This document shows, piece by piece, positions 36,509 through 40,498 of a stretch of 64,000 nucleotides of DNA. The stretch covers positions 3,357,826 to 3,421,825 of the forward strand of contig CP138355.1 of assembly GCA_033584155.1 (NCBI GenBank). The letters run 5' to 3'. A model generated the notes under the pieces. The model saw only the letters and a program-made list of their open reading frames with translations. It was not told the DNA's origin and did no database searches. Positions within the stretch are counted from its first letter, which is position 1. Each line of letters begins with the position of its first letter. Position numbers and translations under genes: made by a program. This DNA comes from Candidatus Electrothrix scaldis (GTDB lineage Bacteria > Desulfobacterota > Desulfobulbia > Desulfobulbales > Desulfobulbaceae).

Positions 36509-36950
36509 TCCTTACATATTGATGCGTATAGATAAAAAGTGTGCTCATCCGCTTGCCGCAACGCAAAAAAACGTCTCCGCTCCCTCGTTGTAACAAAGGT
36601 CTTAAAAGCGCTACCAAGCTTGAGCTTAAATCACACGAAGATCGAAGAATTACAAAGAAAAATTCGAATAGCCTTCGCTCAAAAAAAGAAACATTATTTT
36701 AAATCTATTATGACAATAAAAAAAAAGAATGCGCAACGTATTTCCCAAGATCTTTTGCTTTTCACGGGGCGCGGCAAAAGAAAATTTTCCGTTTCTCAGC
36801 CTCTGTTAGCGGAAGAAACATTCATTTTTCATGCAGAAAAAAAGGAAATGAAGGTATACTAGGAAAGGTATGAAAACATAAACCAGCTGTTTGCAGTAAA
36901 GCAGCAGCGTCCCCCCTACCCGCCCCCCCCAGAGAAAAGGAGGAAGCATT
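36509..36950. other. Intergenic region upstream of hflX
   Basis: About 440 bp, AT-rich, between divergent genes. A 107-codon open frame (36539-36862) has no ribosome-binding site and a composition unlike a protein, so I do not call it. A TATACT at 36855 could be a -10 box but has no clear -35 partner. A C-rich run lies at 36911-36930. Confidence 0.5.
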
Positions 36951-38570
36951 ATTAGTATCATCGGCAATAAATCAGGGCTCAAAACAAAACAGCTCCGGGC
37001 ACTTGAGCGCTTGGAACAAAAAAAGGTTAACCCGGACGAAATTATTGGGCGGGATCTGGCTCGCTCCATGACCTCTCTCTCTACCGAACTGAATCGTCAA
37101 ATCGGCCTTATCATCCATCGCTCCGGCAAGGTGGAATTTGTCCTTCTTGGTGATTACAATCGGATTGAAATACCGGTCCTCAGTAAAATCCGTACCGCAG
37201 GCGGACGCTTACGCGGGCTCCGCTGTGTGCATACCAGCTTCCATTCTTCGGGTATAACAGAAGAAGACGTCATGGACATGGCCTGTCTGCGCCTGGACAT
37301 GATCTCTGTCCTGACCATGAAGGACGGCTATCCAGACCTGCTCCATACAGCACACCTTGTCCCAACCCCAAGGGATGACCGGGATTGGAATCTTCTTGAG
37401 CCGGTCCACCCAGCAGCGCAGCAACAATCCTGCCTTGCTCTGATTGAAAGCATAGAGCATCAGTTTTCCAGGGCGCGGCCAATTCGTGAAGTAGACAAAG
37501 GACGGGACCGGGCCATCCTCATTTCCGTCAGCACAGGTTCACGGGCGGAGGCAGAAGATTCCATGCTGGAGCTATCGGAACTGGCTCGGGCAGCAGGCGT
37601 ACAGGTGGTTGACCAAGTCATTCAACGACGTCGTCAGCTGCACCCCCGCTTTATTCTCGGTCGGGGCAAGCTGGTTGATATTGTGATGATGAGCCTGCGA
37701 AACGGAGCCAACCTGCTCATCTTTGATCAGGAGCTCTCCCCATCCCAGGTACGCTCTGTGACTAACCACACGGACCTGCGGATCATCGACCGCACCCAGC
37801 TGATTCTGGACATCTTTGCCTCCAGGGCCCGCTCCAGGGAAGGTAAACTCCAGATAGAAATGGCCCAACTCAAATATATGCTCCCCATGCTCACCACCAA
37901 AGACGACGCCCTGTCCCGACTTACTGGTGGAATCGGTGCCCGTGGACCTGGGGAGACAAAGCTGGAGATTGATCGCCGCCGCATCAATGATCGGCTCGCC
38001 CGTCTAGCCAAGGAACTCAAAGCTGTGGGGAAACAACGGTATCATCGCCGAAACCGCCGGAGAAAGCACGATGTGCCAGTGGTCTCTTTGGTTGGCTATA
38101 CCAATGCAGGCAAGTCCACCTTACTCAATACCTTGACCCATTCCCATATCCAGGCAGAGGACATGCTCTTTGCCACCTTGGACCCCACCTCCCGCCGTCT
38201 TCGTTTCCCCGAGGAAACCGAAGTCATTATCACGGATACGGTGGGCTTTATCCGCCAACTGCCTGCTGAATTGCTCAAGGCCTTTGAATCCACTTTGGAA
38301 GAACTTTTTGAAGCGGATCTCCTGCTCCATGTCATTGACATTTCCAACCATGCCTGGGAGGATCAGGTTAAGGTGGTGAAAGACCTTTTGCAAAGGCTGG
38401 AACTGGACAGAATCCCCTGTCTACGGGTATACAATAAAATCGATAAGCTTGCGGATGATCTTCCGCCCCAGGTAAAAAACGGGCTTTGCATCTGCGCTCA
38501 TGAGGCAACAACCCTTCAGAAACTCCTGGGCATGATGGAGCATATGCTGCTCGACATGAACCGAGGGTAA
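36951..38570 (+). CDS. hflX: Ribosome-associated GTPase HflX, apparent AUU start
   Basis: 539 residues if started at ATT 36951. HflX N-terminal domain (IIGNKSGLKTKQLRALERL at the start), the RPIREVDKGRDRAILISVST boundary, QVVDQVIQRRRQLHPRFILGRGKL, the GIGARGPGETKLEIDRRRI linker, and the G domain: P-loop GYTNAGKS, DTVGF, NKID. HflX splits stalled ribosomes. The N-terminal IGN..GLK.KQL.ALERL block is conserved in the family, so translation must start before the first canonical codon, TTG 37011. In frame between the stop at 36897 and 37011 there is no ATG, GTG or TTG, while AAAAGGAGG lies 7 nt before ATT 36951. Confidence 0.93.
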   Translation: MSIIGNKSGLKTKQLRALERLEQKKVNPDEIIGRDLARSMTSLSTELNRQIGLIIHRSGKVEFVLLGDYNRIEIPVLSKIRTAGGRLRGLRCVHTSFHSSGITEEDVMDMACLRLDMISVLTMKDGYPDLLHTAHLVPTPRDDRDWNLLEPVHPAAQQQSCLALIESIEHQFSRARPIREVDKGRDRAILISVSTGSRAEAEDSMLELSELARAAGVQVVDQVIQRRRQLHPRFILGRGKLVDIVMMSLRNGANLLIFDQELSPSQVRSVTNHTDLRIIDRTQLILDIFASRARSREGKLQIEMAQLKYMLPMLTTKDDALSRLTGGIGARGPGETKLEIDRRRINDRLARLAKELKAVGKQRYHRRNRRRKHDVPVVSLVGYTNAGKSTLLNTLTHSHIQAEDMLFATLDPTSRRLRFPEETEVIITDTVGFIRQLPAELLKAFESTLEELFEADLLLHVIDISNHAWEDQVKVVKDLLQRLELDRIPCLRVYNKIDKLADDLPPQVKNGLCICAHEATTLQKLLGMMEHMLLDMNRG

Positions 38571-38867: not shown

Positions 38868-39251
38868 ATGGACAGCTATATAATCATCGGGTTTACGGCC
38901 TTTCTCGGCGCTCTTTTTGTCGGAGGATCTATTGGGTTGGCAAAACTCATCTCCTTCCGCACCAAGGATACCGCCCTTAAATTGCAGCCTTTTGAATGTT
39001 CGGAGCCCCCTATCGGGGGAGCACGTATCCGTTTCAAAGTGGCCTATTACATCTTTGCCCTGCTTTTCCTTCTCTTCGACGTCGAGACCCTGTTTCTCTT
39101 TCCCTGCGTAAAAATTTTCAGAGCAGTAGTGGACGGCCAAATCACCGCGATAAGCCATCAACTCGTTTTCATAGAATTATCTGTTTTTATCTGTATTCTT
39201 TTTTCAGGTCTTCTCTATGCCTGGCGTAAGGGGGTTTTGGTATGGGAGTAA
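38868..39251 (+). CDS. nuoA: NADH-quinone oxidoreductase subunit A
   Basis: 127 residues from the ATG at 38868 (AGGAGG about 15 nt upstream). Three membrane helices with family motifs: [34 protein letters not shown], and a third helix ending [13 protein letters not shown]. NuoA is a membrane-arm subunit at the quinone site of complex I. Its last 10 bp overlap the start of the nuoB-nuoC fusion, so they are coupled. A TTGACA at 38714 in the leader may be part of its promoter, without a convincing -10. Confidence 0.93.
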
Positions 39252-40498
39252 AAATTGACAACAAATCTTCTGCGCTGGCCCATGACGCTGGAAAAATCGT
39301 CGAAATGCTGCCCGGTGGCATGAGCCTTGCCCGCTCTGTAGAGATGCTCGTGGCATGGGGACGGGCAAATTCGCTCTGGCCCTTACTCTACGGTACGTCC
39401 TGTTGCGCTATTGAAATGATGAGTACCGGTGCCGCCCGGCACGACTGGGCCCGTTTCGGCGTTGAAGTTGCCCGAGCCAGTGCCCGTCAGGCAGACATGA
39501 TCATTTTGGCTGGTACTGTTGTCGAAAAAATGGCAGAAAATCTGATCACCCTGTACGAGCAGATGCCTGCTCCCAAGTATGTTATTGCTATGGGATCCTG
39601 CAGTATTTCAGGTGGTCCTTTTTATTATGATTCCTACTCTGTTGTAAAGGGTGCAGATCGTTTGATCCCAGTGGATGTCTATATCCCTGGCTGCCCTCCC
39701 CGGCCTGAGGCCCTGTTCTACGGCATCATGCAGTTACAGGAGAAAATCAAAAAAGAAGGCCGTGATATTCCTTGGTCCCTGAATGACCTGGTGAAAGGCC
39801 CCTTTCTTGATACCTTTACTGAGGACAAGAAGGAATGGGATGCACTGGAAGCGAAAAAAGATCAGGAAATGGCTGCTGCCAGAGAGCAATTCAAAATTGA
39901 CAATCCTGATTATAAGCCACCTAAACCTGTTCGTCCGAAGAAAGAAAAATTTCCTTCGCCTGCACCACGTGCGCAGGCCCCACAAGGAGTCAGCAATTGG
40001 ACCATGCTCCAGACACTTCAGGGAAAATTCCCTGCCATCACAGTGCAGGATCATCCTGAAGCTACTCCGAAACAGGTGGCAGAATTGGGTACAGGCTACA
40101 CCTTGGATATGGTTGTTCCCAAGGAGCAGTACCGAGAGGTTATGGAATACCTGAAGGAAAATGAGGAACTCAGCCTGGAGATGTTCATCCAGCTTACCTG
40201 TGTGGACTGGAAGGAATACTTTGACGTAGTGGTTCACCTGCTTTCTGTCAAGGGTGGGCATAAGCTCTTCCTCCGCTGTCGGGTGGAGAAAGATGAGGCA
40301 GGTGGTGGCGAGATAGACACCATCTCTGACCTCTATGCCGGTGCGGACTGGCACGAGCGTGAGGTCTACGATATGTACGGTGTTCGTTTCACCAATCATC
40401 CGGATATGCGTAGAATCTACCTGAAGAACGACTTCCCAGGACACCCCCTGCGGAAGGATTTTGAAGATCCCACTCGGGTGGTCAAACGTCCTTATTAA
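39242..40498 (+). CDS. nuoBC: Fused NADH-quinone oxidoreductase subunits B and C
   Basis: 418 residues. The N-terminal ~175 residues are NuoB with the N2 cluster ligands Cys54/Cys55 ([10 protein letters not shown]), Cys120 ([11 protein letters not shown]) and Cys151 ([13 protein letters not shown]). A Lys/Pro-rich linker (about 190-255) joins a NuoC domain ([44 protein letters not shown]). Both belong to the peripheral arm that passes electrons to quinone. It overlaps nuoA and is closed by a strong terminator at 40533, with no nuoD or later subunits after it. Confidence 0.93.

Follow-up and report, generated by a model that had tools for sequence, protein, structure and literature searches.

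In this study, the hflX gene of Candidatus Electrothrix scaldis, which lies on the plus strand of a 64,000-nucleotide stretch of DNA (the window), was found very probably to begin at the AUU codon at 36951-36953. Moreover, a start at AUU, AUC or AUA (collectively AUH) appears to be an old trait of the phylum Desulfobacterota, and most of the sampled long-type hflX genes appear to use one of these codons. We consider it fairly likely that translation starts with fMet at AUU 36951, that this start is such an old phylum trait, that it has been selected to be weak, and that HflX output, low as a result, rises once there are more 30S subunits than free IF3.

The hflX coding sequence spans 36951-38570 on the plus strand, stop codon included, and encodes a product of 539 amino acids. 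HflX is a ribosome-splitting GTPase. The identity of the product is clear from the TIGR03156 equivalog profile (445.8 bits against a curated cut-off of 216.75), from three Pfam domains (GTP-bdg_N, GTP-bdg_M and MMR_HSR1) and from a structure comparison in which its fold matched ribosome-bound HflX structures. The nearest relatives with a name on record, with 84-86% protein identity, belong to a Desulfobulbaceae MAG, Ca. E. aarhusensis and Ca. E. gigas. Elsewhere in the window, an ORF at 39242-40498 resembles, as judged by eye, a NuoB-NuoC fusion of complex I. Reading of the sequence confirmed the original prediction that the hflX frame is shut on its 5' side by an in-frame TAA (36897-36899) and that no canonical start codon stands ahead of the conserved HflX sequence, because the first ATG, GTG or TTG after this stop is the TTG at 37011-37013. 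The Shine-Dalgarno sequence (SD), AAAAGGAGG, occupies 36935-36943; ATT 36951 is placed 7 nt after it, and a second ATT (36948-36950) is placed 4 nt after it. The segment encoded from the start region is (I)SIIGNKSGLKTKQLRALERL, and the 19 conserved codons at 36954-37010 (SIIGNKSGLKTKQLRALER) would be missing from the product if translation began at TTG 37011.

The comparison of start codons in related genomes that the original prediction had proposed was carried out on long-type hflX genes of Desulfobacterota. A total of 292 loci were gathered, 217 from the host order and 75 from outside it; the latter comprised 60 loci, about one per family among the matches listed, and a further 15 taken from a second sampling of 30. 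Two loci at contig ends (L082 and L261) were left out, as were 37 whose start region exactly duplicated that of another locus, which gave 253 non-redundant genes, the window gene included, with 178 in the order and 75 outside it (69 families). Some loci were placed in the host order by name and similarity rather than by individual GTDB assignment. The outside-order loci shared 33-52% local identity with the window protein over the first 100 amino acids. L335-L349, whose matches lack this N terminus, were also left out; 14 of them are short-type and L340 is cut by its contig. Two long-type copies occur in some genomes (G139, G094 and the isolate carrying L069 and L070), and both L069 and L070 have an ATG two codons 3' of the usual position.

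The genes were anchored on a conserved GLK motif, and the start lies 9 codons before this motif in most genomes and 8 codons before it in Electrothrix. An SD was counted when its core was at least 4 nt and its spacing 4-10 nt. The strict pattern was defined as an in-frame stop upstream, no ATG, GTG or TTG from there to column -6, an AUH codon and an SD. In addition, a start was assigned to each gene (n = 252, L164 having no assignable start) with column -9 preferred, so that the 221 of 252 genes assigned AUH represent a generous count and the 213 of 253 with AUH at the aligned position the strict one. In this assignment L195 was given TTG and probably starts at an ATG at -10, and L183 and L192 are doubtful.

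Of the 253 genes, 213 had AUH where the alignment places the start (162/178 in the order and 51/75 outside it), and 202 of the 253 also had an SD at 4-10 nt (154 and 48, respectively). The relatives thus bore out ATT 36951 as the predicted start. An odd start codon as such is upheld by these counts, but AUU in particular is not, the conserved property being the class AUH. The strict pattern, in which the frame is closed and offers no canonical option, was found in 153 of 253 genes (118 in the order and 35 outside it). Among the 69 outside-order families, 44 own at least one gene that combines AUH with an SD and lacks a canonical codon between columns -10 and -6; 35 contain at least one strict-pattern gene. 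Cultured sulfate reducers also carry the AUH start. Among cultured relatives, the codon is ATT in Desulfobulbus elongatus (L063), ATC in Desulfogranum mediterraneum (L110) and ATA in Desulfogranum japonicum (L047), and Desulforhopalus vacuolatus (L100) was assigned GTG. Furthermore, the spacing from SD to AUH had its maximum at 6-7 nt; among the 207 genes with a core of at least 4 nt, these two values account for 58 and 78.

The composition of the aligned columns points in the same direction. In column -9 of the 253 genes, 209 codons begin with AT, the third base being C in 107, A in 58, T in 28 and G in 16; GT occurs nine times (seven with AUH one codon later, two as GTG starts) and CT twice. 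The aliphatic column -6, in contrast, is a mixture of GT (115), AT (96) and CT (28), and the fixation of column -9 at AT therefore argues for a start codon rather than for an isoleucine. Canonical starts were assigned to 31 of 252 genes, and a canonical codon lies somewhere within columns -10 to -6 in 44 of 253, which indicates that AUH is not indispensable. In another 42 of 253 genes, canonical codons were found solely beyond column -10 at scattered positions, and upstream canonical starts were rejected. A tree was built from 119 full-length proteins, all but one of which had an assigned codon; among these 118, the 11 canonical tips require 9 changes, as expected of scattered losses from an AUH background. 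About 38 third-base changes were placed on this tree, about 7 of them to G, which suggests that AUG arises, yet rarely spreads or is poorly kept.

The pattern exceeds chance, since AUH stands in 213 of 253 hflX genes and the control gene, der, lacks the pattern. The der gene was found in 56 of 58 genomes of the host order, and ATG, GTG or TTG occurred 4-22 codons before the P-loop in 29 of the 30 loci examined; L350, and arguably L362 with its GTG at a distance of just 4 codons, instead have a clear candidate in an ATG 55-56 codons before the P-loop. The sample from outside the phylum was tiny (two Fusobacterium records and E. coli). The long-type hflX genes of Fusobacterium animalis and F. 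vincentii have ATG at the homologous place, L380, the sole long-type gene among 24 viral-contig relatives, starts with ATG, and E. coli hflX starts with TTG and encodes a protein without the long N-terminal part.

IF3 discriminates against start codons whose pairing with the initiator tRNA is poor. In the mechanism proposed here, translation of hflX would start with fMet at AUU 36951, aided by the strong SD 7 nt upstream, and selection would hold this start weak. As the third base of AUH pairs poorly with the initiator tRNA, IF3 would disfavour it and the HflX level would normally be low. When 30S subunits exceed free IF3, more HflX would be made, and the supply of the 70S-splitting enzyme would thereby track how the subunit pool stands. 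According to Katoh and Suga (PMC10158994), IF3 demands Watson-Crick pairing at the first two positions of the codon and is laxer at the third, which matches the hflX pattern of a fixed AU and a freer third base. In PMC8407246, E. coli HflX is described as made at the onset of persister resuscitation and about 100 times below ribosomal proteins, so that low, conditional output is a known habit of HflX. PMC12493154 states that HflX splits 70S ribosomes and that heat-shock promoters drive it in E. coli. From the anatomy of the locus and its conservation, we infer that AUU 36951 is used in the cell, that output is low and that it would depend on IF3. On these grounds hflX is probably a low-output gene and probably IF3-sensitive, and control by IF3 is plausible.

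A serious rival to IF3 control is that the AUU start acts as a plain fixed brake, giving constantly low HflX tuned against SD strength without any sensing of IF3; we regard this as possible, if somewhat doubtful. The relatives with canonical starts, which mostly have a weak or absent SD, speak for it. A core of at least 4 nt was present in 9 of 23 ATG genes versus 207 of 221 AUH genes, the median SD energy was -4.3 kcal/mol in AUG genes and -7.9 kcal/mol in AUH genes, and the mean was -5.3 kcal/mol for canonical starts and -8.3 kcal/mol for AUH (Mann-Whitney p 2e-6, uncorrected for kinship). The start of E. coli hflX, TTG, is also a weaker one, and SD compensation is reported for GUG and UUG starts generally in PMC5622118. 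However, an AUG with a weak SD would suffice as a brake, and the AUH with a strong SD seen in 202 of 253 genes would be an odd route to the same end. Moreover, the compensation was not significant in seven independent pairs, of which about 4.1 agreed and about 0.5 disagreed (median p 0.22), and the weaker SD beside canonical starts is therefore a trend only. A weak SD beside AUG fits selection for a low output and sensing of IF3 alike.

It is highly improbable that translation begins instead at TTG 37011 or at some other canonical codon downstream, with the conserved upstream residues untranslated. TTG 37011 is indeed the first canonical codon of the frame, but a canonical codon stands at the aligned position in just 28 of 253 genes. 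The congeners compared were L005, a separate assembly with a 99%-identical protein, and five more distant ones (L006-L010); a seventh, G006, has a truncated copy and was left out. Between the window gene and L006-L010, change in codons 2-20 is mainly synonymous: over the 19 codons that follow ATT 36951, synonymous differences number 6-10 and non-synonymous ones 1-4. Upstream of the SD, 17-19 of 19 triplets differ, in an ungapped comparison whose count is inflated by indels. L005 shows zero differences in the 19 codons, and its upstream differences are mostly an artefact of the ungapped alignment. Furthermore, G5, G9, L10, K11 and L18 are the same in all 45 homologues aligned, and the structure predicted from the 45-row alignment contains a strand at residues 3-5 and a helix at residues 12-23 within a confident fold (mean pLDDT 82 for residues 1-10 and 93 for residues 11-20). 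The N-terminal part folded by itself gave a pLDDT of 33, and that model was set aside.

A sequencing or assembly error that conceals an ATG, for which the homopolymer C runs shortly upstream (36911-36930) might speak, deserves practically no credence, because the same ATT is found in the separate assembly L005, ATT or ATC in the five other congeners, and AUH in 213 of the 253 genes, which come from many assemblies. The two readings that the original prediction had set against its own, a hidden ATG and a start at TTG 37011, thus both fail and are effectively excluded by sequence comparison, given that L005 and the other congeners keep ATT or ATC and that the 20 residues which a start at TTG 37011 would remove are conserved and modelled as folded. 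The prediction had left the choice between ATT 36951 and ATT 36948 open; only the former stood, and ATT 36948 was rejected as the start since five congeners (L006-L010) have GTT there and keep ATC or ATT at the position of 36951. Taken together, the TAA closure, the SD, the conservation of AUH and the exclusion of both an error and TTG 37011 make AUU 36951 very probably the start of hflX.

The leader was also searched for structure and for promoters. The leaders of the window gene and of four Electrothrix congeners, five in all, formed no hairpin or SD-sequestering fold better than those of shuffled sequences. The C runs at 36911-36930, directly 5' of the SD, are common to L001 and its 99% relative L005; L006 is more weakly C-rich and L007-L010 lack them. 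An SD-sequestering C-tract was rejected because the leaders fold like shuffles and long C runs are confined to L001 and L005. No promoter-like site was found on the plus strand of the hflX leader, and a promoter or terminator was rejected, the single candidate, a weak minus-strand site resembling a promoter, lying within shuffle expectation.

The odd-start phenomenon is known, and hflX as such a gene and the phylum-wide range appear to be new; searches of an open-access library turned up no report of a non-canonical hflX start. To our knowledge, few genes have proven AUH starts. If the proposal is true, a ribosome-splitting GTPase that retains AUH across most of the families sampled in a phylum would be a very widespread case, and the anti-association activities of IF3 and HflX would come under one control. 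It is conceivable, at somewhat less than an even chance, that Desulfobacterota possess an old IF3-HflX circuit in which HflX is subject to the start-codon check that also governs IF3, so that splitting is freed when 30S outruns IF3, and that HflX proteins annotated from a downstream canonical codon are truncated. Automatic annotation assumes ATG, GTG or TTG and would therefore misplace the N terminus of HflX in Desulfobacterota genomes.

HflX of E. coli, Listeria and Mycobacterium is the same GTPase with the same fold as the window HflX. None of the solved HflX sequences found extends over the N-terminal part of the window protein, about 185 residues long, and a Pfam search of this part returned nothing convincing. 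Among the genomes sampled from other families, 14 have as their best match a short-type HflX without this part, and L335 has no canonical start ahead of the conserved sequence but contains stops within the match. In many relatives the N-terminal domain carries HTH-(L/P)xGE-x-(I/L)(S/T/N)xxD (residues 85-120, window 37203-37310), which we take to be reminiscent of the metal-binding JAMM/RadC motif. In Electrothrix and its close family, the second H of HTH is lost (e.g. HTS, HTV).

Among genes with odd starts, infC, which encodes IF3, is known for an AUH-type start, and autoregulation by its own product is experimentally established. It was found in 57 of 58 genomes of the host order, and as in hflX, AUH stands behind an SD at the homologous position in all 36 loci examined, several of which also have an in-frame canonical codon. 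In the genome of the window, infC (L311, G000:C1:3977160-3977663, minus strand) has an apparent AUU start behind caggagg. Unlike infC, which encodes IF3 itself, hflX would be a putative target of IF3. The AUU start is shared with E. coli pcnB, an unrelated gene, whose expression it reportedly limits, as Binns and Masters are said to have found in 2002. The original prediction held that AUU starts are well known only for infC and pcnB, which proved too narrow, as odd starts are also described for sigR (GTC), cvfC1 (AUU) and ccpN (AUA) in PMC5472188 and PMC13009471. Like hflX, sigR of Streptomyces is a stress gene whose non-canonical start is conserved and accompanied by an extensive RBS, and its translation from GTC is repressed by IF3 in vivo according to PMC5472188; unlike that of hflX, its start is GTC and is well conserved in Streptomyces, and for the other actinobacteria considered in that paper there is no evidence of it. 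Similarly, ccpN and cvfC1 of Staphylococcus aureus combine a conserved odd start with an extended SD, as hflX does. They are other genes in another phylum, and for them PMC13009471 reports initiation seen by ribosome profiling and an output from the conserved AUU and AUA starts of about 10-30% of that of AUG.
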